From Kiritimatiellia bacterium (GTDB lineage: Bacteria; Verrucomicrobiota; Kiritimatiellia; RFP12; UBA1067): a DNA stretch of 64,000 nucleotides. The notes beneath the pieces are model-generated. The model made no database searches. It saw only the letters and a program-made list of their open reading frames with translations, and had not been told where the DNA came from. This document shows, in pieces, positions 19,098-41,047 of this stretch (positions are counted from its first letter, which is position 1; each line of letters opens with the position of its first letter). The position numbers were made by a program, and so were the translations under genes. The stretch is taken from NCBI GenBank assembly GCA_017405115.1, contig JAFRBA010000228.1:5282-69281 (forward strand), read 5' to 3'.

Positions 19098-22000
19098 TCA
19101 GCGGAGTATTATCGACATCCCGAGGGGGATCACCTTCAGCACAAGCGCGTCCCCTGACTGTCGAAGGAAGTACCTCCGCCGCGGATTCATCGCACCTGTA
19201 AACGTAACGTCCAGTACGTTCGCGTTCGCGATCTTGTCCGCCGAGAAGACGACATACTCGCCCGGCCCCAGCCTTGCGATGCCGTCCGGGAACGCCACCG
19301 ACACCGCGTCGTTCGCGAACTCGACCGTCCCAGCGACCGTCAGGCAGTCGATCTCGCCGGGAACGACGAGAGACGTCACGCCGGAGATCGCGCCCGCGGA
19401 GATCGTGCCCGAGCCTTCAAGCGCGGAGGCCGAGACACACGCCTCGCCGCCGAGGTCGAGCGCCGCGCCTGAAGCCACGGCAAGCGAATCAAACGACGCG
19501 TCCAGCGGACGCTCCGGATTCGCCCCCAGGCCCCACTTCCACATAAGGTACTTAAGCAGGTATTCGCGGCGCTCCGCCGAAAGCTCCGCCGAGAACGCGA
19601 TCTGCTCGGAGATGCGAGAGCCACCGGCACGAGACGTGCGGTCCTGCGACATGGAAGTCGCGGAAGAATCGCCCGTCGGCGCGAACGATATGAGGTGGAA
19701 GCCGCTGGGCAGCCTGTACGTATACGCCTGTTCTTCGCCGTCGACCGCGATGTATCCGTTGCGGACAACGGCATTCGCAGAGTCGGCAAGAAGCGCACCG
19801 CCGTTGCTGCTGTACGCCCGAAGGTAGTCGTAGGCGTGATTCGTGGAACCGCGCCCGCCGACGATCATGCCGCCCTTCGCAGAGTCCGCGTCGGAGAACA
19901 CTGTGTGTATTTCGCGCACAGAGGTGAACGCCTCGCTGAACTGCATGCCCGCGCCCGCGCTGTAGGACACATCGCCGAAGTCAACGGTCGGGCGGCGGAC
20001 GCCGTCAGGCATCGCCGGTACATTGTACGTCGGGTCTCTGGTCTGCGGCCTGCCGGGCAGCTCGTAGCCGGACGCCGTGGATGTTATGACCTCGGACGCC
20101 GAGAGCGAAGAGTGGGCGAACACGCCATTGCGGCGGACGTCCAGCCAGTGCGTAACGTTTGTCGTGACCGTCCCGTTCCCGTTGGCAACCTCGACGAACG
20201 TGAGCGCGCCCGTGTCGGATGCGTCGAAGTGGAACAGCGCGTCACTGTCGTCGATGCCGACCGGAACCGGATAGGAAAGCGAACCCGCCTCGACGGAAAT
20301 GGACGCGACGCTGTTCAGGTCCGCGATGGACGCCAGCGAAACCGCACCTTCGCCGCGCTTCACCACCGCGCCGCTCCCGCCAGACACCTTCAGCCCGTTC
20401 ACGTCGGAGTCGGAGTCAACGACGACATCAGCGCCGTCGGCGAACGAAAGCGGATGGGACGACACACCGTCGCCCGCGCCGATAGTGCCGGGCAGCTCCT
20501 TTCCGAGCCACTTCTTCATGAGATAGGCCGTGGTCGCACGGCGCTCATCCGGAGTCAGACGGCGGTCGTAGAGAATGAACTCGCCTATCCGGAGATCGCC
20601 GGGGAAGTTCCCCGAAGCCAATCGGTCCTTCGCAAGCACGTCGGCCTTCGCCTTCGATCTGGACGAGAACGAGACGACGTGGAAGGACGTGTCGTTGAGG
20701 GCGCTGTACGTCTGCCACGGATCGGCCGCCATGCCGTCTATCGTCCAGAGCCCGGCCGTCACGTCGGAGGTGCCGTATGTGCGGTCAAGAAGGCGCCCAG
20801 ACACGGCCCGGTAGAAATCCAGGTCGGACGACCCGAAGATGTTGCATGTGGAACTGGACGAATTGAACCTGAACGCGATGAACCCCTCGCATGCGTTCGC
20901 GCTCCCGTGCGGCTGCAGCCACATGAACGACGCCTTGCCGCCCGAGACGTTTCTGCCGAAGTCAACTGCGCGGTGCCCGTTGGCGGCGCCATCCACGACC
21001 GTCGGAAAGTTCGTGGGATACGAGGAGTAGACGTTCGTCTGCGGCGTCTCGGCGTAGACTTCGTGCCCCGCGCCCCGGCAGTCGTTCCACCGCGTCACAT
21101 AGTACTTATCGGGATCGAGATGGGCGTAGTCTAGCTGCTGCGTCACGACGGACGACTGCGCCTCCGCGTCAAGCCAGACGTACGCGCCGTCAGCCGGGGC
21201 GGAGGAATCGACGGTGCGCTGCTCGCGAATCTTAACCTGCCCGCCCTGCACCTCGATTGTGGCCGTCGCCGGCTGCACATCGCCGACGGAAAGAACGCCT
21301 CCGCCCTTCTTGACGAACTTTCCGTTCGCCGCCGTCACAGTTCCGATTCGCGCCGTGTGCCCCTCTGGCACCGAGATCGCCGCGGCAGCCGACGACTGCC
21401 CAAGCACCGCCGCGCCGAAGTCCTCGCGCTCCGCCCCCTTGAGCCATTTCGCCATCAGATAGTCGGTCACGGCCTTGCGCTGCACGTCAGTGAGATGGTT
21501 GGTGTATATGAGGATTTCGCCGATGCGGCAGTTGCCGGTCTCGCTGGCGATGCGCGCACGGCTTCCGATCATGTGTATCTTTGCGGCCGCGTCAGACCCG
21601 TCCGAGATGGACATGCCCATCACGTGGAAATTCGTCATGGAGGTTCCGTACGGATTTTCGAATATCACGCTGAAGGGAATCTTCTGCCCGTTGACGGTCA
21701 GACAGCCGAACTTCGTATCGTTCGGCGCGTTCTGGCTCAGCGGCGAAGTGGCGCCGCCCGTCAGGAAATACCGCTCGGCGCCGTCGCCGTCGCCGAACAT
21801 CGTGCCGACAGACGATGTGCGGTACTGACCGGCGTAGAACACCTCGCGCACATTCTTGCACACCGGCGAAAGTCGCATGTAGCAGTTCGTCGGGAAGCCC
21901 CCGAGCGCGGTCGAGTCGCCGTATCGGTCGCCGAAGTCAATCACGCGAAGGCCGGTAGGCGAGACTGTGCCGTCGGCGATGTACGGAGAGTCTGAGGTCT

Positions 22001-22835
22001 TCACGATGTTGCCGGCCGTAGACGTGTCGGTCGGCTCGTATGCGTACACCGCGCCGCCGTCAGCGTCGCGCCACTTCGTCACGTGCTCGAAGCCGTCGGC
22101 CTTGGTCACCGTGTCGAATGATTCGCGCTTCGACGCGTCAAGATGCAGCCATGCCCCTGGCACGGGTGCGTCTGCGTCGTTCTCGGTCGCCCGCCCGACT
22201 ATGTTGACGGTGCCGGTCGTCGCATAAAGTATCGCAGAGCTGCCGGGAGTGCGCTCCACGGTGAGCGTTCCGGCCCCGGTGGCATAAAGCGCGCCGTCGC
22301 CGAAAAGAGACTTGACCGTCGCAGACGTCCCCGCCGCCGGAACATCTATCCCCATGCGACCGGTTATGGCGTAGTTCCACAGCGTCGGGCTAAACGCCTC
22401 CGTGGCGTTAAGCTGCACTTCGCACCTTCCCCTGTTGTTGTACGAGGCGATGTATCCCGGAAAGCCCCCCGGGTCGTCGACTGAAAGACGCTGCTTCGGA
22501 TATGCGCCAGTCGCCGTGTTGAGCGAGAACTGAAGCATGTGCATCGAGCCGCCGGAGAGCGCGGCGAGGGACATGGTTGGAATCGTTATGTAGCGGAAGA
22601 CATTCGACTCGCATAGGACCATCGCCGTGTCGCCGGCCACATGCGGATACGTGCCGAGGCTGTTTCCCTCGGAGTCGTACCAGTACTGCGAAGACGTCCA
22701 CGACCACCCCGACCCTGTTTTGTTGTTGGCTATGCCGTCAACCGCATCAGCACGCGTACACGCAAACACGACAATGATGGCAGCTCCAACCGCTCTCGCA
22801 AGGCGGCTTCCGTCAAATGCCAGTTCCTTTGACAT
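19098..22835 (-). CDS. Surface LamG-repeat protein with C-terminal M-x-x-I-x-R tail
   Basis: A 1245-residue secreted protein with a signal segment (AVGAAIIVVFACTRADA, about 16-32). It has three LamG-like repeats, each starting near W-L-x-L-D-A-S or F-H-F-D-A-S and each ending in a helix of type YLMAKWLKG, YLMKKWLGKE or YLMWKWGLG. Between and after them are beta-strand repeats of the autotransporter-associated type (AVVKRGEGAVSLASI). The protein ends VLKVIPLGMSIILR, a tail shared with three other proteins of the window. Start at 22835 follows an AAAGGAAAGG site; a nearer-upstream ATG at 22856 lies before that site. Function is probably carbohydrate binding or display at the cell surface; no catalytic motif is seen. 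Confidence 0.75.
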   Translation of the reverse strand: MSKELAFDGSRLARAVGAAIIVVFACTRADAVDGIANNKTGSGWSWTSSQYWYDSEGNSLGTYPHVAGDTAMVLCESNVFRYITIPTMSLAALSGGSMHMLQFSLNTATGAYPKQRLSVDDPGGFPGYIASYNNRGRCEVQLNATEAFSPTLWNYAITGRMGIDVPAAGTSATVKSLFGDGALYATGAGTLTVERTPGSSAILYATTGTVNIVGRATENDADAPVPGAWLHLDASKRESFDTVTKADGFEHVTKWRDADGGAVYAYEPTDTSTAGNIVKTSDSPYIADGTVSPTGLRVIDFGDRYGDSTALGGFPTNCYMRLSPVCKNVREVFYAGQYRTSSVGTMFGDGDGAERYFLTGGATSPLSQNAPNDTKFGCLTVNGQKIPFSVIFENPYGTSMTNFHVMGMSISDGSDAAAKIHMIGSRARIASETGNCRIGEILIYTNHLTDVQRKAVTDYLMAKWLKGAEREDFGAAVLGQSSAAAAISVPEGHTARIGTVTAANGKFVKKGGGVLSVGDVQPATATIEVQGGQVKIREQRTVDSSAPADGAYVWLDAEAQSSVVTQQLDYAHLDPDKYYVTRWNDCRGAGHEVYAETPQTNVYSSYPTNFPTVVDGAANGHRAVDFGRNVSGGKASFMWLQPHGSANACEGFIAFRFNSSSSTCNIFGSSDLDFYRAVSGRLLDRTYGTSDVTAGLWTIDGMAADPWQTYSALNDTSFHVVSFSSRSKAKADVLAKDRLASGNFPGDLRIGEFILYDRRLTPDERRATTAYLMKKWLGKELPGTIGAGDGVSSHPLSFADGADVVVDSDSDVNGLKVSGGSGAVVKRGEGAVSLASIADLNSVASISVEAGSLSYPVPVGIDDSDALFHFDASDTGALTFVEVANGNGTVTTNVTHWLDVRRNGVFAHSSLSASEVITSTASGYELPGRPQTRDPTYNVPAMPDGVRRPTVDFGDVSYSAGAGMQFSEAFTSVREIHTVFSDADSAKGGMIVGGRGSTNHAYDYLRAYSSNGGALLADSANAVVRNGYIAVDGEEQAYTYRLPSGFHLISFAPTGDSSATSMSQDRTSRAGGSRISEQIAFSAELSAERREYLLKYLMWKWGLGANPERPLDASFDSLAVASGAALDLGGEACVSASALEGSGTISAGAISGVTSLVVPGEIDCLTVAGTVEFANDAVSVAFPDGIARLGPGEYVVFSADKIANANVLDVTFTGAMNPRRRYFLRQSGDALVLKVIPLGMSIILR

Positions 22836-22852
22836 CTTCGACCTTTCCTTTT

Positions 22853-22897
22853 TCACCTGAAGATCAACGTCATTCCGGGTACGCCGACGCGGAGCTT
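22853..22897 (-). pseudogene. In-frame C-terminal tail beyond the TGA
   Basis: After the stop at 22898-22900 the same frame encodes KLRVGVPGMTLIFR and then TGA. It aligns with the ends VLKVIPLGMSIILR and, less closely, LVWFWHRMRIIIR and GRRLEFKGTRGTMLKVR of other repeat proteins here. If the TGA was a CGA (Arg), the ancestral end would read GRKLRVGVPGMTLIFR. Confidence 0.65.
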
Positions 22898-24886
22898 TCA
22901 GCCCCCGATGGAAACGCGATTGTCGACAAGCGAGGCGTCCACACCCGGCTCGCCGGTGAGCGTTGTCGCCGTTGCGAGCGTAAGACCTCTGTTCGTCGGT
23001 TTGTTCCCCATGTTTTCGCCTACGACCGTGACGCCCGAAAGGTCAAGTGCACCATCGACGGCAAGAACCCCGCACGTGCCATCGGACGCGACGCTGCAAC
23101 CGAGCGTTGTCATGTTCAGCGTCGCCGTAGAGTTGATCTTCAGCGTACCAGACTCGTATACGCCAGGCCAAACCGCGCCGGTCACAGTGAGAGTTCCGTT
23201 CGAGACGATGCCATGGCCCACGAGGTTCGCAACTGTGAACGAGTTGCCGCCGAGGTCCAACACTCCGCCACAGAGCTGGAGCGTCGTCGCTGGAAGCGCC
23301 TCGTCGCCGACGACAAGCGTTCCGTTCGAGACGCACGTCGCGCAGAGCCAGTCGTTCGTGCCTGCAAGCGTGAGCTTGCCCGTCCCGGCCTTCGTGAACG
23401 CCGGCAGCGCGGCAAGCTGCGCCGCCGTCGAGGCAACAGGCGCAGACTGCCCCGTGCCCGTACGCGCGGCGAAGGACTGCGCGATGGTCAGGTTCTGCCC
23501 AGTCGTGTCGATTACAATGCCGCCAACGCCGACATATGCCGCAGTGAAGCCCTGCATGAACTCCGCCACCGCCGAGGTGTTCGCAATCATCTTGCCGCCG
23601 TCGAGAATCAGCGTCGCCTTGTCACCCGTGCCGAGCACGTTCGCGTTGCTCACAAGCCTCCGCGCCTTCAACGTACCGTTTGAAAGGAGGCTTACTTTTC
23701 CCGTGCGGCCACCTGCGGACTCTTGCAACGCAATCACCGCCCCGTTGATCGTCACAACGCCTCCGTTAGAAACCTCAAATGTGCCATTGCCGGCGTAACC
23801 GACGGACAGGAGGGACGGGGAGTCTTTTGGCATGGTAAAATTTCCGCCGCGAACGTATAGTCCGCCTTCATTGTTGTATTTCACACCAATCCTGCAATAC
23901 GGGCAGCGTATGTATACATCTCCGCCGTAGACGTAGAGATTACCTTTTGCACCCGCGTCCTGTCCATGGCATCCGCCGATGTTGGCACGATAGCTGTTGG
24001 CCGTCGGTGACTTGTCCAGCGTTCCGCCATACAGATAGTAGTTAAACGTGAAGCCGACGTTGTACCCAAGCGAAAGAGCATCCGTTCCGCCGCCATAGAC
24101 ATCTACCGTGCCGCTGTACTGGTATATGTCGCCTCGACGACCAAGCAGATTCTCGACTTTGAGGCTGGTTTCATTTGTGATGATGACACGTCCGGCCGCC
24201 AAGTATCCAGGGGACAAATTGCCCCCCGAGATTTTCGCGTCGACGCCGTCTAGAAGAAGCGTCCCATAGCTGGACGTTGCAGAGCCATCGCTCCCTCCAG
24301 GTGCGAAATACTTTCCACTACCGAGAGAAGCTGTCAGTTTGCCGCCGACAAACGCGAGATTCGAGCCAGATCTAGTGCCCACGCCTGACGTCGAAGGCAA
24401 GTTGATTGACGTTTCCGCGTTTGAAACTATCAACGACGAGCCCGACGCCGTCAGGTTAAGACCTGTGGTCGTCAGTTTGTTTGTGACGCCGGCATTGGGC
24501 GGCGCAACAATCGTCTTGCCTTCGCGCACCTGAAGGCTGCCGAACGTGTTTGTTCCGTTCAGCACCAGCGTCCCAGCGCCGGTGCGGTTGAACGTGCCGC
24601 TCGTCGCAACGTCGCCGCTATATGTCGCCGTGCCGGATGGCACCTCGTTCGTGAGCGTCAGTGAGCCGAAGTCCACGTCGCCGGAATACGTTCCATCGGC
24701 AACGGAAATCTTGTCGAGGGTGCTCATCGCAGCCCTGGCCTCCTGAAGTGTGCCGAACGGACTCTCGGCAGACCCGTCGCCGCCTTGCCCAGCCCAGTCG
24801 TCGTCGACATAGATGGTGGCCGCCGCGAGCGGCAGAATCGCGCTAGCCGTTAGCGCGGCGAATACAACATGTGCTGGTGTTTTCAT
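22898..24886 (-). CDS. Autotransporter-type beta-repeat surface protein, truncated by TGA
   Basis: A 662-residue exported protein (signal MKTPAHVVFAALTASAILPL). It begins with a parallel beta-helix-like part (TIYVDDDWAGQGGDGSAESP) and continues with autotransporter-associated strand repeats (GAGTLVLNGTNTFGSLQVRE; KAGTGKLTLAGTNDWL). It is the first gene of the long operon, preceded by GGAGGA. The frame ends at a TGA (22900-22898). Reading on in the same frame gives 14 codons that encode the C-terminal tail found on sister proteins, then a second TGA. Either the stop is a recent nonsense change or the extension is sometimes translated. Role: likely surface display or adhesion; no enzyme motif seen. 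Confidence 0.72.
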   Translation of the reverse strand: MKTPAHVVFAALTASAILPLAAATIYVDDDWAGQGGDGSAESPFGTLQEARAAMSTLDKISVADGTYSGDVDFGSLTLTNEVPSGTATYSGDVATSGTFNRTGAGTLVLNGTNTFGSLQVREGKTIVAPPNAGVTNKLTTTGLNLTASGSSLIVSNAETSINLPSTSGVGTRSGSNLAFVGGKLTASLGSGKYFAPGGSDGSATSSYGTLLLDGVDAKISGGNLSPGYLAAGRVIITNETSLKVENLLGRRGDIYQYSGTVDVYGGGTDALSLGYNVGFTFNYYLYGGTLDKSPTANSYRANIGGCHGQDAGAKGNLYVYGGDVYIRCPYCRIGVKYNNEGGLYVRGGNFTMPKDSPSLLSVGYAGNGTFEVSNGGVVTINGAVIALQESAGGRTGKVSLLSNGTLKARRLVSNANVLGTGDKATLILDGGKMIANTSAVAEFMQGFTAAYVGVGGIVIDTTGQNLTIAQSFAARTGTGQSAPVASTAAQLAALPAFTKAGTGKLTLAGTNDWLCATCVSNGTLVVGDEALPATTLQLCGGVLDLGGNSFTVANLVGHGIVSNGTLTVTGAVWPGVYESGTLKINSTATLNMTTLGCSVASDGTCGVLAVDGALDLSGVTVVGENMGNKPTNRGLTLATATTLTGEPGVDASLVDNRVSIGG

Positions 24887-25268
24887 TTGCTGGTTCCTCC
24901 GAGTTCTTGCGCGTTTTCATGCTGTTTTTGGACGCTTTGCCGACATCCATTCACGACGCTTCCGGCGGTGGTTCCAGTCCCGGGTAGAGGACGTAGACGT
25001 GGCGACAGCGACGAATGGCGCCGACAAAACACTTGCGCCTTCAACAACCGTAGGCGGAGCTGTCAATGGAATAGGCATTTGTGCGATTTCTCCATTTTGA
25101 TGTTTTCATTATACCATAACCCGTCCATCACCGCAATGGCCTGGCACGGACAACAAATGGCCCTTTGTTTACAAAATTTGGGAACCGCCAATGCAATGGC
25201 TGTGGGGTGCGAACAAATTCTGTTAGGTTGCTTCAACCACGGGAGGGTGCGTGTCCCCACGCCGCATC
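24887..25268. other. Long leader and control region of the 19-kb operon
   Basis: No gene is seen in these 382 bases. The promoter at 25108-25136 predicts a leader of about 215 nt before the first start codon. Upstream lie an inverted repeat, AACAAATGGCCCTTTGTT (25152-25169), a TTTGT-N2-ACAAA palindrome overlapping it (25164-25175), and GCAATGGC twice, exactly 60 bp apart (25133 and 25193). These are operator candidates. Confidence 0.5.
25108..25136 (-). promoter_or_regulatory. Promoter of the 19-kb surface protein/glycosidase operon
   Basis: Minus strand: TTGCGG (25136-25131), 17-bp spacer, extended -10 TGGTATAAT ending at 25108. It has the same -35 hexamer and spacing as the GH2 promoter. 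Predicted start about 25101. Confidence 0.7.
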
Positions 25269-26108
25269 CTACCTTGCGCCTCCGTCGAATCCCGAGAGTA
25301 TCAGCTCCGCAAGACGGCGCATCCCCAGATCGCCAGGATGCTTCGCAACGCCTTTATGCTCAAAAAGGCCGAGCGCCATGTTTTCGTCCCTGTCGCCCAG
25401 CGGCCCCGCGTCGACGTATATCGCCCCAACCTCACTGGCGGCTTTTGCCGTGCAGCCCGCCTTGACGACGTTTCGCCAGAACGGAGAGCGCATTACGACC
25501 TTGGGGCGCTTCGCGCTTTCGACAAGGGGCCTTGCGAGACGCACGAGGAACTGCGTGTAGTCCAAGACGTCCGACTCCATTACCGAAGGCACGTTCTCGC
25601 CTATCGCTATCACGACGTAGTCGGGCGCATACGCCACGTCGTCCGCGAGGTCGGTGTACTCCTCGAGGTTCGCCCTGTAGTTCCGCTCCAGGACGGCGAT
25701 GTTGCGGATGCGGTAGTCGGCTCGCTCGCCGCGGCGCTTCTCGAGGCCCGCTATGAGCAGGTGGGCGAAGTCCTTGTCGCGCGAAGTGGCCGCCATGCCC
25801 CAGTCTGCGTTCCATCCGATCTTCGGAGCGCGTCCGTGGGCCGCGATGGAATTCCCGTATATGAGCACCTTGAACTGGCCGCCGCACCTGCGCTCATGGC
25901 AGCTTATCTTCGCGCCCGGGTTCATCATCTCGGCTCCCATGCGCTTCGCGTCGCTGACGACGAACTTCGGGGCGACGGCGTCCTTGCCGACTTCCTGAGC
26001 CTCATCTCCGTGAGGGACTCGATCCGGCGTGGCATGAAGCGAAAATGCCGCCATCAAGGAAACCAAGCCAATCTGAATCTTTCTCACGACGAGCGACTCG
26101 CGCGTCAA
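25269..26108 (-). CDS. Exported SGNH/GDSL-type esterase
   Basis: A 279-residue protein with a signal-like start (KIQIGLVSLMAAFSLHA) and an SGNH hydrolase core. Block I is FKVLIYGNSIAAHG (the usual G-D-S replaced by G-N-S), block III is VIAIGENVPS (Gly-Glu-Asn) and block V candidate is GDLGMRRLAE near the C-terminus, where the usual D-x-x-H is not obvious. Family members deacylate sugars or cleave carboxylic esters. The likely start is TTG at 26108, which overlaps the stop of the upstream gene; a GTG at 26087 would also keep the signal peptide. It is co-translated with the GH20-like gene, suggesting a joint role in removing acyl groups. The imperfect catalytic blocks lower certainty. Confidence 0.6.
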   Translation of the reverse strand: MTRESLVVRKIQIGLVSLMAAFSLHATPDRVPHGDEAQEVGKDAVAPKFVVSDAKRMGAEMMNPGAKISCHERRCGGQFKVLIYGNSIAAHGRAPKIGWNADWGMAATSRDKDFAHLLIAGLEKRRGERADYRIRNIAVLERNYRANLEEYTDLADDVAYAPDYVVIAIGENVPSVMESDVLDYTQFLVRLARPLVESAKRPKVVMRSPFWRNVVKAGCTAKAASEVGAIYVDAGPLGDRDENMALGLFEHKGVAKHPGDLGMRRLAELILSGFDGGAR

Positions 26109-27205: not shown

Positions 27206-27272
27206 CTTCTTTTTGCTCCTTGTCGTTAAGCCGCAAATTCTACGATATCCGCACCTGCTGGGTCGGCACAAC

Positions 27273-27680
27273 TCAGCATGAAGCGATGAAATCGGCCGGG
27301 GATACCGCCTTCACTGGTGACACGGCAAAATCTGCCACGTTTCGGGTAACGATGCGTTCGCATCCAGCCGACACCGCCGCTGACGCAACAAGCGCATCCT
27401 CAAAATCAGCCATGCCAAAACCTCGCGCAGCGGCGATTTCACCCTGCCCAATGGCTGCCGCATTGAACGAATCAAACACCCATTCCATCGCACCATCGCG
27501 CTGTTTGCGGGTGACAGCAGAACCCAGAAGATAATAAATCGTCGGATAGGCATGGACAGCCAGAAACGGGGTTTCACCCTGTTCAACAATCTTGAGGAAC
27601 GCAGTCTTGGAAGTCTCGTAGAACGGCTTGCGTCCTCCTACAATGTCAAGAACCACGTTTATGTCAAGCATCACCTTCAT
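27273..27680 (-). CDS. vapC: PIN-domain ribonuclease toxin (VapC-like)
   Basis: The 135 residues form one PIN domain. The first strand MLDINVVLDI carries Asp6, the centre has the acidic pair in ADFEDALVASAA (Glu94/Asp95), and the end has TRNVADF (113-119), all standard for the metal-binding site of VapC nucleases. VapC toxins cut tRNA or rRNA and are held inactive by the upstream antitoxin. Its ATG overlaps the antitoxin stop as ATGA. Base composition is noticeably less GC-rich than the neighbours, consistent with recent acquisition. The first Asp is followed by Ile-Asn rather than the more usual Thr/Ser-Asn. Confidence 0.85.
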   Translation of the reverse strand: MKVMLDINVVLDIVGGRKPFYETSKTAFLKIVEQGETPFLAVHAYPTIYYLLGSAVTRKQRDGAMEWVFDSFNAAAIGQGEIAAARGFGMADFEDALVASAAVSAGCERIVTRNVADFAVSPVKAVSPADFIASC

Positions 27681-28006
27681 GCGTGACGCCTTTCGACAAT
27701 TGCTCGCCGACTTTCAGCACGCTCTAGATCTAACGGCAGAGAGATTGCAAGTGAGGAAAGGCGGTCAAGCGACCGCTTTGCCTTCCTCATGCGAACCTTG
27801 ATTGTCGATGACACTGTTTTGGACGCAGCTATCGTTCGTTCAACCTCCTGCTCGTCGGGGACAGGAAGCGACTGCAGCAGAACACCCCCGCTTGCACCGA
27901 GCATAAGCAAGGTTGTCCCAGAATGCCAACCATAGCGTTTCCGGAATGCATCCGGCACAACCACCTGGCCTTTAGAGGACATCTTTGCCGTTCCTATCGT
28001 GTACAT
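27677..28006 (-). CDS. vapB: AbrB/MazE-type antitoxin (VapB-like)
   Basis: The 109-residue protein starts with an AbrB-like swapped-hairpin DNA-binding domain, SSKGQVVVPDAFRKRYG (10-26). A linker and a basic, helical C-terminal region that would wrap the toxin follow. Such antitoxins repress their own promoter and neutralise VapC. It has its own strong promoter and a clear AAAGGAG site 6-7 bases before the ATG, so it is independent of the enzyme operons on both sides. The C-terminal tail is longer than in many VapB proteins (usually 70-90 residues). Confidence 0.8.
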   Translation of the reverse strand: MYTIGTAKMSSKGQVVVPDAFRKRYGWHSGTTLLMLGASGGVLLQSLPVPDEQEVERTIAASKTVSSTIKVRMRKAKRSLDRLSSLAISLPLDLERAESRRAIVERRHA

Positions 28007-28036
28007 TGCAAACTCCTTTCAAGTAAGACAAGTAGG

Positions 28037-28065
28037 AATATATCACTTTTCATCCCACATGTCAA
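28037..28065 (-). promoter_or_regulatory. Promoter of the vapBC module
   Basis: Minus strand: perfect TTGACA (28065-28060), 17-bp spacer, extended -10 TGATATATT ending at 28037. Predicted start about 28030, leaving a 24-nt leader with AAAGGAG. It overlaps the last codons of the upstream gene. It is the best -35 match in the window. Confidence 0.8.
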
Positions 28066-30815: not shown

Positions 30816-30821
30816 GACTTC

Positions 30822-31865: not shown

Positions 31866-32768
31866 TTATGGACACGGCCACTCCATGACCACCCTTATCG
31901 GGAAATGGTCGGAGGGATAGAAATTGTCGCCGTAGAAGTCGCCGAACGTCTCGTGGCTCGCCACCTTCGTGCCGGGCGTCAGGAAGACATGGTCGATGCG
32001 GTTCCCGGCCTTCTCGTCCTCCTGTTCGGGCGGCACGAACTTCCAGCAGTTGTCCGTGCGGAACGGCCCCTTCGGAGGCGTCGCGCTGATTTCATAGGCG
32101 CGGGAAAGCGTCTTCTTCGCCAATTGGATCTGCGGCGACTCGACGCGCGAGTTGAAGTCGCCGCAGAGGATCACGGGAAGTCCTTCACGGTTCTTCTCGG
32201 CGATCTTCGACAGCACAAGCTCCATCCCCTTCTCGCGCGCCATCTGGCTGCGATGGTCGAAGTGCGTGTTGAAAAACAGGAACTTGCGTCCGTCAACGCA
32301 GTCCGTCATCCGCGCCCAGGTGCAGGCGCGGACGCACATCGTGCCCCAGGACTTCACGCCCGGCACGTCCGGCGTCTCGGAAAGCCCGAACCAGCCCCAT
32401 TCGTCAACGCGGAACCGGTCCTTCCGGAAGAAGATGCCGTTTGCATGGCTTGTACGCGAGCGCTCGGCGTCGTTCGTCGCGACGCCGACAAGTCCCCATT
32501 CCGGAAACGCCTTGCGAATGAAGTCCGCCTGCTGCGTACAGACCTCCTGAAGCCCCATCAGGTCGAAGCCCTTGTCATTTATGAGCCCCGTGACGTACGG
32601 CATCCGCGCCTCCCACTTCGGGAAACGCGGATCCTTCTCCCACTTGTCCATCGTGGCGAGCCGGATGTTCCATGTGCCGAAGCGAATCGGCGTGGCGCAA
32701 AGCGCCATCGTCCATAGCGCCCCGGCTGCAAACAAAAGGATCTTTCTCGATTTCATCATTTCACGCAT
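31866..32768 (-). CDS. Exported endonuclease/exonuclease/phosphatase family protein
   Basis: The 300 residues make a complete EEP domain behind a signal peptide (KILLFAAGALWTMALCA). Family residues are all present: TWNIR (Asn34), LQEV (Glu75), THFDHR (168-173), CGDFNSR (Asp204, Asn206), NRIDHVF (Asp259, His260) and SDHFPI (Asp287, His288). Such exported proteins cleave phosphodiesters or phosphate monoesters using Mg2+; polysaccharide loci often carry one of unknown substrate. The start overlaps the stop of the LamG gene as TGATG, so the two are translationally coupled. A second EEP domain closes the fusion protein at 5.7-10.5 kb. Confidence 0.85.
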   Translation of the reverse strand: MREMMKSRKILLFAAGALWTMALCATPIRFGTWNIRLATMDKWEKDPRFPKWEARMPYVTGLINDKGFDLMGLQEVCTQQADFIRKAFPEWGLVGVATNDAERSRTSHANGIFFRKDRFRVDEWGWFGLSETPDVPGVKSWGTMCVRACTWARMTDCVDGRKFLFFNTHFDHRSQMAREKGMELVLSKIAEKNREGLPVILCGDFNSRVESPQIQLAKKTLSRAYEISATPPKGPFRTDNCWKFVPPEQEDEKAGNRIDHVFLTPGTKVASHETFGDFYGDNFYPSDHFPIRVVMEWPCP

Positions 32769-35700
32769 CAGCGGATGATGATACGCATCCTATGCCAGAA
32801 CCAGACAAGCTTCGTACCACCGTCCGTGACGGCCAACCGCCCCCTGCCCACTCTGTTGTTGGCAAGCCTCTGCAACGAGTCGGTGGAATTGGATACGCAC
32901 GAGATGAGCGTAACGGTGTCGCCCTTGAACGCCGAGGCGTCTACGACGAGCTTGACGGGATCGACCGCGAAAGTCTCCTCGTCAGCATCCACCGTAACGC
33001 CGCCCGCTGTGGCAATTGGCGCCTCCGCAAAGCCGCCCGCCGGGATTGTGAACTTAAGCCGCGCACCCATGCGCAGGCGGACGGAATCCATGCCATCGCC
33101 AGAGACGTTGATTTTCGACGCCTCGCCAGCCACGTTCACGAAGTCGTTCGAGCTGGCGGCGGAGGAGACCTTGGACCCTACGAGCAGCTTGACGCAGTTC
33201 ACCGTCGCGTTGCTCACGTTGACGCCGCAGAACGACGTATTGCCGCAGATGCCGACCTCAAGACGCGCCCTTGCCCCGTCCTCGCCGTAGCCGAAGACGG
33301 AACCGTCCAACACGTTCAGCACATTGCCCATTGAAAAGGCCGTGGTGTTGTTCGCTCCCGCGCCGACGACAAAGCGGGACATGCCCGACCCCTTCATCAC
33401 GAGCTTGGCGCTGTTCTGCAAAGTGAACAACGCACCTCCGCCGTTCGGACCCTTATCCAAGGAGGCGCCGACCACGAACGGATAGCCCTGCAGCGTCACC
33501 GTTGCGTTATTCACGACGAAGCGGCTTCTGTTGCCGGGGGCGGTGTCATAGTTCCGTCCAAAGACGTTGACCGTGCCCCCAAGCGGCGCGAAATGCTCGT
33601 AGCCCCCAGTTATGGTAAGGGATGCACCGTCACTAACCGTCACATCCACGTCGCGGTGGATGTAAAGGCCGCTCGCGCCGACGGAAGCCGTCGTGCCCGA
33701 GCCCGTGAACTCGATCTGCGCACGGTCGTACACTCCTTCTTCGTAGGTCGAGAGGCGATTCTGCGTGGCAAACGTATAAAGACCCTTACTCGTGAACTTC
33801 GCTCCGCCCGAAACGCGAAGCCGCGTGAACGGACCCTCCATACGGAATGTCTTGTTGATGGAGACCGTCGTATCCGCGCCCTCCACAAGGAACGATCCGG
33901 AGCCGCGCACAAATGCATTGGCATAGTCGTTGTGGAGCTGAGTGCCTGGCGTGCGCTCAGCCAATGCACCGATCATGACACCCTCTGCAACGAACGTGCC
34001 GTTCGTGAGCGTCAGGCTGGCGTAGCGATTCCCCTCAACGCCCCGTGCACCATCCGCCTGATAGTCGCCCAGCACCGTGAACGTCTTGCCGCCCATGTCG
34101 AATGTCGCGTCGACATACCGCCCCCACTTCTCCACGTTGCCGTTCCGCGCCCGCATCGCGGCGACCGTCCGGTCCTTGGCGAGCGTGATCTTGTAGGTTC
34201 CCAGCGGCAGATTGACGGTGTAGCTCGCATCGGGGACCCTGACCGTCTGGTCAAGATCGACCCAGTTGCCGTACGTGTCGAAGTAGCCATCTCCGATCTC
34301 GCTCGACGGGCCGTGCCACGTAAGCGGGTTCTCGAAACGCACCCTGTCGATTTCGCTGTTCGACCAGACTCTCGTATTGGACGGCACGTTGTCGTAGAGG
34401 CGGACGGAGTAGACGCGTCCGTAAAAGGCCGCGCCGCTTGACCGCGCGCCGACCTGAACGTAATTTGCGCCGGCGCCCCAGTCGTCAAGTTCGCCTTCGC
34501 GGGCCGGCGTCTTCCTCGTCTCATACGTCTTGCTCACACCGTCGGCGTATGCGTTTGTCGTCGCAACGTCTCTTGTCGTCGCGAGCGAGTGAAGGCCGAG
34601 ATCTGAATTGTCGAGCACCTTGTACAGGCCCTCGTAGTTGCACCATTGCGCGCGATATGTGCCAAGGACGCAATAGTAGCCGGCCACGCCGCCAGAGAAA
34701 AGCCAGGCATTGGCGCCTGCCACATCGTGCCTGAACACAATCTCCATGGACGTGAATGTCTGCGGCGTCGTCCCGTAGGCGCCAGACGGCGAACCGCCGA
34801 CGCAGTAAAGGGAACCGTCTTTCCACAAACTGTTGTTGAGAGTGAGGTCTTGGCCTCCACTTACGAGGTTCTTCCAAATGTTTGTCGCCTCGTCGTACTG
34901 CCCCGCGCCGACATTCTCTTTCGCGTCCCAGAACGACGTCATGCCCGTCTTGTCGTACATTGCGCTCGTGTAGAAGCGCTTTACGTCGATGGCGTGGTTG
35001 CGGGCGATCTCCTCGTCCGTCAGCACGCGGCTGTAGAAGCGAATGGCGTAGATTTCGCCCTCCCATCCGTAGTTCGCCGACATCGAAGACGTCACAACCC
35101 TGCCGCCGAGCGAGAACACGCCGTCGCCGGCGCCCCAGTCGTTGACGCTCGTGCCGCAGTACCGCTGGACGCCATCGCAATAGACATCGGCCACATCGTC
35201 GTTTTCGCCGTACGTCGCCACAAGTCCGGTCGGCACGTACGCCTGCATCTTGACGTAAGGCGTCGGACGCGACTTTACGACTTCCGCGCGCCCGTCGAAG
35301 TAGGCCCAGACAAATGGATAGGTCACGTTGCCATGGTCAAATACGATATACCGCGACCGGTCGCCAGACCAGAGCATAATGCGGGAGTATCGCCCCGACT
35401 CCTTAAAGAACACCTCGATCGTCTTGTACAGGGGCGCGGCGGTCTTGCCGAACGCCGCCGCCTTGCTGCTCGCAGTCTGATTCATGCTGAGCCCGATGCC
35501 CCTGCACCATGCGGCGCTGTTCGTGAGCGTCAGGTCGTTGTCGCCGGCCAAGTCCTTCCATGTCGTCGCGGTCGGAACGTGCACGCCCGTGCCTTGGTTG
35601 TCGATGCCGTCGTACTGACCAATAAGGCCGTCCTGCACGTAGCTCAAACTCGTAAGCGGCGCTTCAGGAGGGTCTTCCGGAGGCAGGAACCTCGCCTTGT

Positions 35701-36394
35701 CGATCGCGCAGTTCTCGGCGATCTCCGCCGCCGTCAAGGCACGGTCGTAAAGGCGGATGGCGAAAACCTCACCCGTCCATGGATAATTCTGGCCGAGCGT
35801 CCTGTCGCCGACAGCAACCTTCTTGTCGCCTGTACCCCAGGTATTTCTATGAGCAACGCCTGTCTGGACTTCGCCATTGAAATAGAGGTTGCTGACCGTC
35901 GAACCATCGTAAGTCGCCGCCGCAAAACGCACCTTGTCCGCATCATGCGAGCAATTGATGCGTTTGGTATCCGTCGATCCATCAAAATAGAGCCTGGTGC
36001 CATCACCGTCAAAGACGACGAATCGCGTATTGATTCCGCTGTTGAACAGAATTCGACCGCCGGCATCAGTCATCCTGTAAACGACTTCGATCGTTTTGTA
36101 GGCGGGCGTCGCGCTCGCGCCCTGCGCACCCGCGCCACCGCCGGCGACCTGCAGCGCGTTGCCGTCGAACGTCCACGAACCTTTGGCTGTCAGAGTCATG
36201 TCGAGGTTGCCGACGAGGTCTTTCCATACAGTCGCGTTCGGGTCGTGCGTTCCCGTACCCGCGTTGTCGATGCCGTCCCACTGCGCGATCAACCCGCTCT
36301 GCACGTAGCTTGAACTGTCGTAGGCAGTATCGGCAGAAAGCGTCAATGCCAACACCGTCGAAGAAAAAACCATCCAAAAGACTTTACGGTTCAT
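32768..36394 (-). CDS. Surface protein: three LamG domains plus beta-helix, M-x-x-I-x-R tail
   Basis: A 1208-residue secreted protein (signal MNRKVFWMVFSSTVLALTLS). Three LamG_3 domains occupy about 28-236, 250-490 and 495-690. Each has a core like Q-x-D-G-I-D-N-x-G-T-G-x-H...W-K-D-L near the start and F-A-I-R-L-Y-D-R-x-L-T near the end. About 700-1170 is a repetitive beta-helix with autotransporter-type strands (GAKFTSKGLYTF; NSAKLVMKGSG). It ends TKLVWFWHRMRIIIR, a variant of the shared tail. LamG domains bind glycans; the helix probably presents them on the cell surface. It leads the unit that includes the EEP, metallo-hydrolase and Tat proteins. AAAGGAG-like site (AAAAGGAG) precedes the ATG. 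Confidence 0.78.
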   Translation of the reverse strand: MNRKVFWMVFSSTVLALTLSADTAYDSSSYVQSGLIAQWDGIDNAGTGTHDPNATVWKDLVGNLDMTLTAKGSWTFDGNALQVAGGGAGAQGASATPAYKTIEVVYRMTDAGGRILFNSGINTRFVVFDGDGTRLYFDGSTDTKRINCSHDADKVRFAAATYDGSTVSNLYFNGEVQTGVAHRNTWGTGDKKVAVGDRTLGQNYPWTGEVFAIRLYDRALTAAEIAENCAIDKARFLPPEDPPEAPLTSLSYVQDGLIGQYDGIDNQGTGVHVPTATTWKDLAGDNDLTLTNSAAWCRGIGLSMNQTASSKAAAFGKTAAPLYKTIEVFFKESGRYSRIMLWSGDRSRYIVFDHGNVTYPFVWAYFDGRAEVVKSRPTPYVKMQAYVPTGLVATYGENDDVADVYCDGVQRYCGTSVNDWGAGDGVFSLGGRVVTSSMSANYGWEGEIYAIRFYSRVLTDEEIARNHAIDVKRFYTSAMYDKTGMTSFWDAKENVGAGQYDEATNIWKNLVSGGQDLTLNNSLWKDGSLYCVGGSPSGAYGTTPQTFTSMEIVFRHDVAGANAWLFSGGVAGYYCVLGTYRAQWCNYEGLYKVLDNSDLGLHSLATTRDVATTNAYADGVSKTYETRKTPAREGELDDWGAGANYVQVGARSSGAAFYGRVYSVRLYDNVPSNTRVWSNSEIDRVRFENPLTWHGPSSEIGDGYFDTYGNWVDLDQTVRVPDASYTVNLPLGTYKITLAKDRTVAAMRARNGNVEKWGRYVDATFDMGGKTFTVLGDYQADGARGVEGNRYASLTLTNGTFVAEGVMIGALAERTPGTQLHNDYANAFVRGSGSFLVEGADTTVSINKTFRMEGPFTRLRVSGGAKFTSKGLYTFATQNRLSTYEEGVYDRAQIEFTGSGTTASVGASGLYIHRDVDVTVSDGASLTITGGYEHFAPLGGTVNVFGRNYDTAPGNRSRFVVNNATVTLQGYPFVVGASLDKGPNGGGALFTLQNSAKLVMKGSGMSRFVVGAGANNTTAFSMGNVLNVLDGSVFGYGEDGARARLEVGICGNTSFCGVNVSNATVNCVKLLVGSKVSSAASSNDFVNVAGEASKINVSGDGMDSVRLRMGARLKFTIPAGGFAEAPIATAGGVTVDADEETFAVDPVKLVVDASAFKGDTVTLISCVSNSTDSLQRLANNRVGRGRLAVTDGGTKLVWFWHRMRIIIR

Positions 36395-36430
36395 ACGCGT
36401 AATTCTCCTTTTTGTGATCTACGGCGAACG

Positions 36431-36459
36431 ATTATACCAAGATTGACTTCCCTTTTCAA
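36431..36459 (-). promoter_or_regulatory. Promoter of the LamG/EEP/metallo-hydrolase unit
   Basis: Minus strand: TTGAAA (36459-36454), 17-bp spacer, extended -10 TGGTATAAT ending at 36431. Predicted start about 36424, giving a 30-nt leader with a Shine-Dalgarno site. Confidence 0.72.
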
Positions 36460-36477
36460 TTCCGAAAACCAAGATTC

Positions 36478-38697
36478 TCATTCAAATGAAATCCGTACGG
36501 CGTTCATCGTCGTGGAATCCGAGCCGACGTAGAGGGTGAATGCGCCAGGTTCGACAACGCGCTTCAGGTCCTTGTCATAAAGCGCGAAGGCGTTGTCGTC
36601 GAGGGTGAATTCGACCGTCTTCTCTTCGCCCGGCTTGAGCCAGACCGATGTGAACTCCTTTAGTTCCCGCTCGCGCGGCAGAACGCTCGCCACTTCGTCC
36701 CGCACATACAGCTGGACGACTTCGCGTCCGGCAACCTTGCCAGTATTCTTCACAGGAACGCGGATGCGCACCTTTTCGCCGATCTTGTACGCCGCCTTGT
36801 CCGCAAGCGGCTTGCCGTAGGCGAACGTGGTGTAGCTCAGGCCAAAGCCGAACGGGAACAACGGCTTGGACGGGATATCGGCATAGGAGCACGTTATGAA
36901 CGTGCGCTTCTCGCGATAGGAGAGCGGAATCTGTCCGACATCGTACGGTATGTGCTGCGCAAGCTTTCCAGACGGATTGACCTCCCCGCATAGCACTTCG
37001 GCGATGGCCTGCCCGCCCATCGCACCCGGATACCACGCCAGGATCACCGCATCCGAAAGCCACACAATCTCGTTCATGATGAAAGGACGCCCCGCGAACA
37101 CCACCGAGACGATCTTCTTTCCGGCGCGTTTGAGCGCACGGAGGTTCTCAAGCTCGGAGGCCGGGATCTCAAGCCGGGCGCGCCCCCTGCGTTCGCCCGT
37201 GTACTCCGTCGGCTCGCCGATGGAGAGCACTACGACATCCGGCTTCGGCATTCCGCCGCCCAGCCCGCGCGCCACGTTGAACATGTTCATTGGCTCATAG
37301 TCGAGATTCACGCCCCAGCGTTTCGCCATCGCCATCTTGATCGTGTCGATCTTCATGCGCGATTCTTCCTTGATGCCGGTATCCACGTCATACTCGTTGA
37401 ACATGTCCTTGCCCATGCCGCCGCGATGCGCGTCGTCATCGTCCACCCAGGTTCCCGTCAGCCCAACGCGCTTCGAAGTATCCAGCGGCAGAATGCCGTC
37501 GTTCTTGAGAAGGACGAGCGTTTCGCGCGTGAGCGCAAGGACGTCCGACTTGTTGCGGTCCGTCATCAGCGCTTCGCGGGCCTTCTTCTCGTCGCAGAAG
37601 CGGTAGGGGTCGTCGAATAGTCCCATGAGATACTTGAGCGCAAGCGACCGGACGACGGCGACATCAAGATCCGCCTCGCGCACCTTGCCCTCGCGCACGA
37701 GCTTCGGCAACACGAGGAACGCGCGGCTGATCATGTCCATATCGACGCCGGCCTCGAGCCCGCGCTTCGCCGCATCCTCGATATCCGTCGCTGCGCCCTC
37801 GTCGATGGAGAAAGTCAGCGTTGTCCAGTCCGTGACGAGCTGTCCGCGGAATCCCCATTGGTCGCGCAGAATGTCCTTCAGGAGATAGCGGTTGAAGTTG
37901 CAGGGAATGCCCTCGCAGACGGTGTAGGCGTTCATGAGCGAAAGCGCGCCAGCCTTGATCGTCGCCTCGAACGGCGGAAGATGCGTTTCAAGAAGTTCGC
38001 GGCGGGAGAAGTCCTTGTGACGGTAGTCCTTCCCGCCTTGTAGCGACGAATAGCCAGCGAAGTGCTTGGGGCAGGCGATGATGTGTTCGCCGTCCGTGAG
38101 CTCTTCGAGCGTACGCCCCTGGCAGCCGCGCACCCGCGCCGCACCGACGCGTCCGGAAAGATACGGATCCTCGCCGTGCGTGCAGCCGATGCGCCCCCAG
38201 CGCGGATCGTCGGAGACATCGACCTGCGGAGAGTACGTGAGCTGAATGCCGATTGCGGCGGCTTCGCGCGCGGCCACTGCCTCGGCCTTCTCAATTGCCT
38301 CGTCGTCCCAGCTGCACGCGATGGCGATCTGGCTCGGGAGCGTCGTCACCCAGCCATGTGTTATGTCCTCATGCACGATGAGCGGTATTCCGAGGCGGGA
38401 GTGCTCCATCTTGTACTCCTGGAGCCGCCGCGTCTCCTTGGCACCAAGAACGCGCATCATGGCGCCGATCTCGTTGCGGCAGACCATGTTGGTGTAGATG
38501 TGCCAGTGGTTCGGACCGAGGTCCATGTAGTCGTAGACCATCAGCTCGCCTGCCTTCTCCTCAAGCGTCATGCGTGCACACAGCTCGCGCGCTCGCGCCT
38601 CCGCACGCTCTAGTGCATCTTCGGCGCGAACGGCCGCGACCGGCAGTAAAGCGAAAATGGCGACTATCCGTAGAATTCCAGGCGCCTTGTGTTCCAT
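36478..38697 (-). CDS. bglX: Exported GH3 beta-glucosidase-type enzyme
   Basis: A 739-residue protein with a signal peptide (about 1-25) and the full GH3 plan. The N-terminal barrel (about 30-350) contains the KHF-type strand ACPKHFAGYSS and the nucleophile Asp290 in QLVTDW. The alpha/beta sandwich spans about 400-620 and the fibronectin-like cap about 660-735 (VREVVQLYVRD type). Motif FSPQVDVSDDPRWGR-like text (YSPQVDVSDDPRWGRIGCTH) is characteristic of BglX-type periplasmic beta-glucosidases. Cleaves terminal beta-glucosyl or beta-xylosyl residues; exact sugar unknown. It follows the beta-repeat surface protein by 22 bases and is presumably co-transcribed with it. Confidence 0.92.
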   Translation of the reverse strand: MEHKAPGILRIVAIFALLPVAAVRAEDALERAEARARELCARMTLEEKAGELMVYDYMDLGPNHWHIYTNMVCRNEIGAMMRVLGAKETRRLQEYKMEHSRLGIPLIVHEDITHGWVTTLPSQIAIACSWDDEAIEKAEAVAAREAAAIGIQLTYSPQVDVSDDPRWGRIGCTHGEDPYLSGRVGAARVRGCQGRTLEELTDGEHIIACPKHFAGYSSLQGGKDYRHKDFSRRELLETHLPPFEATIKAGALSLMNAYTVCEGIPCNFNRYLLKDILRDQWGFRGQLVTDWTTLTFSIDEGAATDIEDAAKRGLEAGVDMDMISRAFLVLPKLVREGKVREADLDVAVVRSLALKYLMGLFDDPYRFCDEKKAREALMTDRNKSDVLALTRETLVLLKNDGILPLDTSKRVGLTGTWVDDDDAHRGGMGKDMFNEYDVDTGIKEESRMKIDTIKMAMAKRWGVNLDYEPMNMFNVARGLGGGMPKPDVVVLSIGEPTEYTGERRGRARLEIPASELENLRALKRAGKKIVSVVFAGRPFIMNEIVWLSDAVILAWYPGAMGGQAIAEVLCGEVNPSGKLAQHIPYDVGQIPLSYREKRTFITCSYADIPSKPLFPFGFGLSYTTFAYGKPLADKAAYKIGEKVRIRVPVKNTGKVAGREVVQLYVRDEVASVLPRERELKEFTSVWLKPGEEKTVEFTLDDNAFALYDKDLKRVVEPGAFTLYVGSDSTTMNAVRISFE

Positions 38698-38719
38698 TTT
38701 GCGTCAGTCCCCATTTCCG

Positions 38720-41047
38720 TCAGCGAACTTTCAGCATCGTGCCGCGTGTGCCCTTGAACTCCAGTCTCCTGCCGTCCGCGCCGATGCGGAACCGCCAGCC
38801 GCCCCAGCCGTTCTCGGCCGAGACGACAGTACCGTCGGACTTTACGAACGTTATGTCGGGAAGCGCGTCCACATCTGTTTCGCTGAAGCGCGCGACCGTG
38901 TGCCATCTGCCGGTCCACGACTCGGAGTCCAGCGTATCGCATTCGGTCACACGAATGCCGCACCCCGCACGGAAAGACCCGATCGCCTTCGCCCAGAGAA
39001 GCGGTGTGGCCGCATTGGTGCAAGCCGTCAGCGCCGCAGCCGGGAACTCGATGTCGCCGTCAGGCCGCGCGCTGTTGAATGTGAGCGTGCCGCCCTCAAG
39101 ACGCGTCGGACCGTTGTAGCCGTTGGCACCGGTCAAGGTGAGCGTGCCGGCGCCGAGTTTCGTGAGACCTCCGTCCATCTCGCCTTCGCCCACCCCGGAC
39201 ACGAGCGCGGTATTGACACGCCTCGAATTGCCGTCCGTGTCGAATCGTGCACCGCCAGCGAGTACACGCACCGTGACATTTGCCCAGTAAGCAGTCGAGC
39301 TTCTGCCGCCAAGGAAATTGTCGCGATCTGTCTCGGTGATGGCACTGCTCGAATATGCCTTGATTGTGCCGCCGTTCAGGTTGATGGTGCCTGTATCAGC
39401 TCCATACATGATAAAATAGCCAACACGCAGCACGCCGCCCGTGTTTACGTTGATCTCGGACTGGCTGCTCTGCGAAACCCTGATTCTGTAGCATTCGAAC
39501 ACGCCATCGTTCTCCACCGTCAACTTGGCGGGCGTGCTAAGGCCATTGAGATATTCGGCGTAATCGTCCAGCATGCTCACCTTGCCCCCAGAGACGAGAA
39601 CCTGTGCATATTTGCTCGCCTGGGCGTAGCGAGACCCTTCGATTTTCAACGTGCCCCCGGAAACCTTCAGGTTGCCGGCATCGCCTGCATACGCGCTGTT
39701 GTCGCCCTCGACATACAAAGGTGCGCCGGTGCCCGTGCCGGACGTGGGGCTGCGAACAAGCGTCGTGCCGCTCGCGATCTCCAGGCTTTTAAGAACCTGT
39801 ACCCTGTCCAGTCGGTTCGTGCGGCCATCGCCAGTGTCCAGCACGACGCGACCGCTCCAGCTACCGAATTTCACGATCGTATTTGTCGAGCATTCCGCAC
39901 CATCGGGAACATTGATCTCGCCTCCTATTCCAAAACTCCTGTTGGCACCGATTGTGATTGTGGCGCCGGCATCGATTGCGATATTGCGGTTGCGGTGCAT
40001 CAAGTAGTAGTCGCCCCCGTTGCCGCCGAACATCGTGATGTTCCCTTTGAAGAATATGTTGTTCGTCGGCGATGTCGGCACTTTCCCAAACACACCGTCG
40101 GATCCGGCAAAGTTCTGAAACGTCATGTTGCCCTCAAACCAGGTTCCGCCCTTGAACGTGCTGTTTCTGCAGATGCCGTCCAATCGTATGGTCGTGCCGC
40201 CGCTTGTCTTGAAATGCACGCCACCGTCTGGCTCGTCCTCGCCGGTGCCGGTAAAGAGCGGCTTGTCGATGGTAACGGTCCCGACATCGTTGACCAGGTG
40301 AAATCCGCCTGCATCGACGTATGACTTGACGTTGGCCCATTTCGCATCGTCTCCTGTGTAGAGAGAACCGGCGTAAGTTATGTTCACGGTTCCGCCATTG
40401 TAGCGAATCACGGCATAGCACCCGGACTCGGCAATGTAGAACTTATCGACGTACATCTGCCCACCGGCATTGAGGAAGATGCCGAGATCGCCAGCCAACT
40501 CTGACTTGTACGTCTGGCAGACGCGGATCTGCGGCCACTTGAACACGCCTTTGTCCTGAACAATCAACCTGCATCCAGTGCAGTCCGAAGGAATGCTGAT
40601 GGCGTGGAGGAACTCCTTGCCGGAGCCTGGAGTATAGGTAACTGGCTGGAATGTTCCGTTCGTGATCATGAGATCGCCGCAAGAGGTCGCCACCCCCCAT
40701 CCGCTCGTGTTCCACACGTTCACCGTAGCTCCACCTTCGACGATTGTGACGCCGCCGCTCTGCCCAAACGTGCTGATGCTTGAAGCCGCCCCACCAGTAC
40801 CCTGGATGGTCGTAGTTCCACTGTTGATTTTAAGCGTCCCGGCTTTTGTCTCCAAGCCGACAAGCGAATTGTTGCCGGAAAGCGTCAACGTGCCAGAACC
40901 TGTCTTGACGGTGCGCGTGGCATCCGTTATGCCTGAAAGCGACCCAGCGCTGTACTCAGTCGCACAAAGCGGCAGCATAAGCGCCATCGCGCAACCGCAC
41001 AACACGAATGCAACGGCGACTCTCTTTTTACAAGCGGAACTGTTCAT
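38720..41047 (-). CDS. Autotransporter-type beta-repeat surface protein with M-x-K-x-R tail
   Basis: A 775-residue exported protein with a signal peptide (VAVAFVLCGCAMALMLPLCA). Nearly all of it is beta-strand repeats rich in Gly, Ser, Thr and Asn, with the hallmark phrases KTGSGTLTLSGNNSLVGLET near the start and KLGAGTLTLTGANGYNGPTR near residue 635, the autotransporter-associated beta-strand pattern. The C-terminus (GRRLEFKGTRGTMLKVR) is a divergent form of the tail seen on the other surface proteins. AAAGGA lies seven to eight bases before the ATG. No catalytic motif; adhesin or substrate-binding scaffold is likely. Translocator beta-barrel is absent, so secretion must depend on another system. 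Confidence 0.72.
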   Translation of the reverse strand: MNSSACKKRVAVAFVLCGCAMALMLPLCATEYSAGSLSGITDATRTVKTGSGTLTLSGNNSLVGLETKAGTLKINSGTTTIQGTGGAASSISTFGQSGGVTIVEGGATVNVWNTSGWGVATSCGDLMITNGTFQPVTYTPGSGKEFLHAISIPSDCTGCRLIVQDKGVFKWPQIRVCQTYKSELAGDLGIFLNAGGQMYVDKFYIAESGCYAVIRYNGGTVNITYAGSLYTGDDAKWANVKSYVDAGGFHLVNDVGTVTIDKPLFTGTGEDEPDGGVHFKTSGGTTIRLDGICRNSTFKGGTWFEGNMTFQNFAGSDGVFGKVPTSPTNNIFFKGNITMFGGNGGDYYLMHRNRNIAIDAGATITIGANRSFGIGGEINVPDGAECSTNTIVKFGSWSGRVVLDTGDGRTNRLDRVQVLKSLEIASGTTLVRSPTSGTGTGAPLYVEGDNSAYAGDAGNLKVSGGTLKIEGSRYAQASKYAQVLVSGGKVSMLDDYAEYLNGLSTPAKLTVENDGVFECYRIRVSQSSQSEINVNTGGVLRVGYFIMYGADTGTINLNGGTIKAYSSSAITETDRDNFLGGRSSTAYWANVTVRVLAGGARFDTDGNSRRVNTALVSGVGEGEMDGGLTKLGAGTLTLTGANGYNGPTRLEGGTLTFNSARPDGDIEFPAAALTACTNAATPLLWAKAIGSFRAGCGIRVTECDTLDSESWTGRWHTVARFSETDVDALPDITFVKSDGTVVSAENGWGGWRFRIGADGRRLEFKGTRGTMLKVR

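Follow-up and report, generated by a model that had tools for sequence, protein, structure and literature searches.

An arginine-ended C-terminal tail as a candidate surface signal on barrel-less repeat proteins of Kiritimatiellae-type bacteria

In this work, we describe a seven-residue motif located at the exact end of two families of homologous proteins and recurring on two more genes of the window, once in a divergent form and once behind a stop codon. The window is the whole stretch of DNA that was analysed, 64,000 nucleotides in length and with a G+C content of 63% (base counts). These last seven residues probably act as a separable C-terminal signal for targeting or assembly. Its carriers are exported, barrel-less repeat proteins of Kiritimatiellae-type bacteria that resemble the passengers of autotransporters. 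The tail has the appearance of an undescribed address label by which proteins would reach the cell surface or hold on to it, and its role in sorting is what we infer.

In the open-licence literature, as covered by titles and the beginnings of abstracts, nothing was found on the surface export or retention of barrel-less beta-repeat proteins of Kiritimatiellota. The open-licence articles found on the passenger-associated transport repeat (PATR) deal mostly with autotransporters of other groups, and published work on PEP-CTERM proteins exists for Akkermansia. A tag of only seven residues makes the question of surface targeting directly testable and would give a handle for annotating the surface proteins of Kiritimatiellota.

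Tailed proteins of the window and their neighbours

Between positions 19098 and 41047, the minus strand encodes four large repeat proteins with signal-peptide-like starts, which lie amid glycoside hydrolases and other exported enzymes. Their repeat parts are of the PATR, lectin-like or other type. The genes and their tails are the following, with the basis of each assignment in brackets.

19098..22856, minus strand: exported protein; three lectin-like repeats by visual count, beta-repeat end (translation, homologues)
19098..19127, minus strand: tail codons PLGMSIILR plus stop (translation, stop-codon scan)
22898..24886, minus strand: exported PATR-type repeat protein, ending at an in-frame TGA (PF12951, TIGR02601)
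22853..22897, minus strand: frame of 22898..24886 beyond its stop, ending in VPGMTLIFR (tail kept, outside the open frame)
32768..36394, minus strand: exported Laminin_G_3 protein with a repeat-like C-terminal half and a divergent tail (translation, Pfam)
32768..32797, minus strand: tail codons WHRMRIIIR plus stop (translation, stop-codon scan)
38720..41047, minus strand: exported PATR beta-helix protein (translation, Pfam, homologues, AlphaFold)
38720..38749, minus strand: tail codons TRGTMLKVR plus stop (residues 767-775 without predicted secondary structure)

The tails GMSIILR (19098), RMRIIIR (32768) and GTMLKVR (38720) end open frames, exactly as the original prediction had read them. Its observation of the shared tail is confirmed, with these three on open frames and the fourth, at 22853, behind a stop. 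Past the TGA, the frame of 22898-24886 stays open for 14 more codons, up to another stop at 22853, and spells KLRVGVPGMTLIFR. The weakest of the four tails is that at 32768, in which Arg occupies the Gly position.

The in-frame TGA that precedes the readable tail at 22853-22900 may stem from a recent nonsense mutation or from an error of assembly, or the gene may be a natural variant that lacks the tail. The use of TGA as a sense codon is not favoured, since 21 of the 29 gene calls chosen from the ORF list stop at TGA. Nor is an element acting at the nucleotide level at the ends of the genes favoured, given that the four tails differ in their codons and the next genes start at differing distances.

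With respect to the protein bodies, the PF12951 match in 22898-24886 (9.7e-06) is just under the curated cut-off; TIGR02601 also matches, and TIGR04393 (T5SS/PEP-CTERM-associated repeat, NCBIfam) does so just under its cut-off. The protein of 19098-22856 had no Pfam match of its own. Its start is probably an inner ATG, giving 1245 amino acids, and the protein P0065 matches it at 99.9%, beginning at MSKEL.

The window contains 25 other gene calls, about ten of them with exported-looking starts as judged by eye, and the neighbouring enzymes do not carry the tail. Since it is absent from exported-looking enzymes next to its carriers, the tail is not a general mark of export.

Some further traits of the neighbourhood were recorded. 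The genes at 10516-13353 and 15794-19096 (both on the minus strand) are enzyme-like and had no Pfam match at 1e-4, and their last 50 residues are nearly identical (ending in AAKVTLGKYDYAIVVFE and AAKVTLGKYDFAMVVFE), a likeness that by eye suggests recent duplication or conversion; 13164-15797, located between them, has a GH123_N match at 8e-8. The 1577-aa protein of 5719-10452 (minus strand) combines an N-terminal Laminin_G_3 and a C-terminal endonuclease/exonuclease/phosphatase domain with a large middle part that had no Pfam match at 1e-4, and its C-terminus is without the tail. Finally, a small pair at 27273-28006 (minus strand), inside the carbohydrate gene cluster, resembles by eye a PIN-domain toxin and an AbrB-type antitoxin.

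The motif at the exact C-terminus

Homologues were seeded by two window proteins only, and scoring in both searches was limited to the 7991 candidates with the most shared words. Family A consisted of homologues of 38720-41047 (64 found, P0001 being this protein itself) and family B of homologues of 19098-22856 (P0065; 69 found). Twelve other PATR proteins of the family A search (P0053-P0064) were counted separately, and P0046 (family A, damaged end) together with P0107 (named partial) and P0117 (unrelated end), both of family B, were left out before counting. The C-termini kept were thus 51 of family A and 67 of family B, 118 in total. By a crude hydrophobicity rule, 109 of these 118 homologues have a signal-peptide-like N-terminus, signal peptides elsewhere being judged by eye, and family scans were made on eight of them. 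P0104 and P0107, two of the weaker homologues of 19098-22856, bear the name Kiritimatiellae in the sources they come from, and this naming is the only indication of the group in these data.

The motif at the exact end of the 118 proteins is G-x-x-h-x-h-R/K, where h is hydrophobic. Gly is present at -7 in 115 of them (50/51 in A and 65/67 in B), a hydrophobic residue (I, L, V, M, F) occupies both -4 and -2 in all 118, and the last residue is Arg or Lys in 110, with Arg in 48 and 53 and Lys in none and nine of families A and B, respectively. The last alignment column is filled in every row and no homologue runs beyond it. These data agree with the original claim of a final Arg at the exact C-terminus. 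The hydrophobic strand that had been described before it also stands, while the pattern Met-x-x-(I/K)-x-Arg is inexact with respect to that given by the homologues. The eight proteins without a terminal Arg or Lys (P0039, P0050, P0052, P0076, P0092, P0100, P0104 and P0130) end in Q, F, E, M, L or W and retain Gly -7, the hydrophobic sites and the length.

The Gly column is among the more informative of the whole protein (rank 66 of 748 in A and 23 of 1147 in B) and the Arg column ranks 113 in both families (of 748 and 1147, respectively), the columns between them ranking lower in information than both. In addition, conservation of the tail extends to homologues of only about 20% identity.

The strict pattern G..h.h[RK] was found at 107 of the 118 C-termini, compared with 125 of 121318 non-terminal positions of the same homologues; counting the dropped rows as misses changes the family values from 47/51 to 47/52 (A) and from 60/67 to 60/69 (B). 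In the window, it ends two of the 161 stop-to-stop frames of at least 150 codons, namely those at 19098 and 38720. It ends none of the 116 open frames in L001-L004, four distant loci found via an HrpA-type helicase, which make a small background.

A profile of both families was also used to scan, in six frames, the 1717 window stops with nine open codons before them. The four claimed tails were the best four of these stops, with 21.1, 20.7, 19.6 and 8.2 bits, and the next one scored 4.4. It must be considered that this profile includes the proteins of 38720 and 19098, so that only the scores of 22853 and 32768 are independent. The tail at 22853 was second-best of all and was found by the profile without knowledge of its gene. 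The other 25 of the 29 window gene calls all scored below 0. When the profile was built on family B only, the four tails were again at the top of the window scan. The profile built on family A only ranked them 1, 2, 3 and 5, with a short open frame at 25716 (plus strand) tying with 19098 at 9.6, above 32768.

Cross-family tests were carried out after removal of near-identical ends, which left 36 of the 51 family A and 57 of the 67 family B proteins. A nine-residue profile trained on A scored the C-terminus highest along the whole protein in 39 of the 57 family B proteins and placed it in the top five in 48; another position scored above the C-terminus in 18, the worst rank being 59. With the profile trained on B, the C-terminus was the best position in 34 of the 36 family A proteins.

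As regards further families, the breadth of the motif depends on 32768-36394 (weak), on 22898-24886 (interrupted) and on remote hits such as P0047-P0052 and P0125-P0131. A tail search by region gave five close relatives, the query included, from nine candidates and reached no other families; P0134-P0137, obtained in this search and outside the 118 counted, all end in the tail. No relative was found in viral contigs with five queries or in plasmids with one. Among 100 genomes sampled from the phylum of G001, 38720-41047 had weak matches in three (best E 3e-5), and in the four weakly matching loci the longest open frame leaves the fetched stretch, the C-termini being outside view.

Relation of the tail to the fold and alternative roles

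The profiles of the last 40 residues of families A and B matched each other with an E value of 6.2e-5 (probability 65%), which became 0.056, with one aligned column, when the final nine residues were removed. Likewise, the match between 110-residue profiles went from E 0.0011 (probability 21%) to 0.033 without the last nine residues. No match between the families was seen in the stretches that precede the tail.

The AlphaFold model of 38720-41047 (51 sequences) had a mean pLDDT of 90.2 and its last strand spans residues 761-766 of 775. For P0109, a family B relative of 970 residues modelled on A3 (63 of the 67 family B sequences), the mean pLDDT was 88.1 and the last strand is predicted at 955-961. 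No secondary structure follows the last strand in either model, and the tail lies outside the predicted fold in both. The pLDDT of the last block averaged 47 (residues 771-775 of 38720-41047) and 67 (961-970 of P0109), low values at a C-terminus being common and no proof of disorder in the assembled protein. The solved structures nearest to the model of 38720-41047 include the autotransporter passengers Ag43 and pertactin, among other beta-helices, while regions of the P0109 model match lectin-type sandwiches. In searches of the profiles against solved structures, A1 matched two autotransporter-type proteases (7e-4 and 2e-3) and A2 none at 0.01.

The original prediction had left two options: the tail could serve as a signal for sorting or assembly, or it could form the final strand of a conserved anchor. 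A separable, signal-like tail is favoured over a last strand, since the likeness between the families resides in the last nine residues and the last predicted strand ends just before the tail in both models. Moreover, the strand before the tail has a hydrophobic register that shifts by one residue between A and B while the tail spacing is constant.

A purely folding role would follow if the tail were the last strand of a beta-hairpin capping the repeat fold, with the turn before or at the Gly and the strand from -6 to -1, which we consider possible but rather unlikely. A hairpin could plausibly be built from the preceding strand, a short Gly turn and an h-x-h strand, and the distance from strand to tail is in one register in 50 of the 51 family A and 63 of the 67 family B proteins, a near-fixed distance that a rigid hairpin would also give within each family. 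However, neither model places a strand at the tail, the unmatched pre-tail stretches and the shifted register speak against a hairpin, and a conserved terminal Arg would have no obvious role in folding.

It is improbable that the tail acts instead as a donor strand completing an adjacent subunit, by which the proteins would polymerise or dock into a surface layer or fibre, in a process of self-assembly and not of transport. The tail is indeed strand-like and without predicted structure of its own, is strictly hydrophobic at -4 and -2 and stands at the exact C-terminus, but a donor strand shared by families that fold differently would require an acceptor groove common to them.

The probability is very low that the tail is a basic-hydrophobic-basic peptide sticking to lipid or LPS and thereby holding the protein at the outer membrane without a receptor. 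The mean net charge of residues -12 to -8 is +2.0 and +1.2 in the two families, the last six residues are free of Pro in all 118 homologues and Asp or Glu occurs within the last seven in only two of the 118, all of which would suit such a peptide; the position-specific Gly and hydrophobic sites, on the other hand, point to a shaped binding site. Membrane spanning would require a hydrophobic stretch longer than the six or so residues present.

The likeness of the four tails by chance or through recent duplication of gene ends has a negligible probability and is already contradicted by the homologue data: although the four genes sit within one 22 kb stretch and 22898-24886 weakly resembles 38720-41047 (26% along 276 aa, with E 0.009 in a small set, the likeness ending before the tails), the tails use differing codons and are kept at low identity, and the stop-codon scan and the homologues led us to reject chance.

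A possible docking mechanism and comparison with known systems

As a separable signal, the tail could be unstructured on its own and would add in the periplasm, as one beta-strand, to the edge of a receptor. The hydrophobic residues at -4 and -2 would pack, the Gly would mark the turn and the final Arg, with its free carboxylate, would fix the register. The receptor may be a protein of the outer membrane that serves in export or anchoring, perhaps one of the Omp85/BamA type, and the tailed protein would thereby be passed to the surface or held at it. The tail would then work like a beta-signal, with the terminal Arg as its distinguishing feature. A broader and speculative proposal, to which we give little probability, is that Kiritimatiellota possess a cut-down autotransporter in which the barrel has been lost and a beta-signal-like, Arg-ended strand docks in trans to a shared protein of the Omp85/BamA type. 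One machine would thus export or anchor a set of surface repeat proteins, and the Arg would separate these passengers from true barrel proteins.

In agreement with the original prediction of no barrel, LPxTG or PEP-CTERM pattern, neither a translocator barrel family nor a T9SS CTD family was matched by the four window proteins (Pfam at 0.001, NCBIfam at 1), and the NCBIfam PEP-CTERM signal did not match them either. LPxTG was found at none of the window C-termini, and neither LPxTG nor PEP is present in the last 60 residues of any of the 118 homologues.

A beta-signal lies in the last strand of a transmembrane barrel and its C-terminal residue is, as a rule, aromatic. The consensus of the BAM beta-signal is zxGxx[W/Phi]x[W/Phi] (PMC10945584). 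The tail coincides with this consensus, as given there, in the Gly followed by hydrophobic residues at +3 and +5, and it is equally strand-like and at the extreme C-terminus. The polar residue found two positions before the Gly in the BAM beta-signal is present in the tails (at -9) in 21 of the 51 family A and 34 of the 67 family B proteins. The tail differs in that no transmembrane barrel was detected and in its terminal Arg or Lys in place of an aromatic end. The absence of a barrel, the beta-helix-like model of 38720-41047 and the presence of an aromatic residue at -1 in only 2 of the 118 homologues led us not to class the tail as a BAM beta-signal proper.

In the T9SS, the C-terminal domain is a whole Ig-like domain that tolerates added C-terminal residues, and the loss of two C-terminal residues keeps RgpB in the periplasm (PMC11285876). 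The resemblance of the tail to the T9SS 'motif C-t.' is that the proteins are likewise exported and that extreme C-terminal residues matter for passage of the outer membrane. The C-terminus may be extended in the T9SS, whereas here no homologue goes past the last column. The Ig-like fold of the T9SS domain is a seven-stranded beta-sandwich. T9SS-type chains were absent from the fold lists shown, in which whole-model searches cover the C-terminal part poorly.

The 12 other PATR proteins of the same search end differently: six in PEP-CTERM, three with a PF03797 barrel and three with neither, and none of the 12 carries the tail. Since other PATR proteins end in PEP-CTERM or a barrel, the tail occupies the place of a known surface-targeting or anchoring element. 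In this regard, the PEP-CTERM/exosortase signal shares with the tail its location at the end of PATR repeat proteins, as seen in those six, but it has a hydrophobic span and a basic cluster where the tail has one terminal Arg. With type Va autotransporters, the tailed proteins share the beta-helix passenger with PATR; the barrel of these autotransporters is absent here and a seven-residue tail is found instead, the model of 38720-41047 ending right after the repeats.
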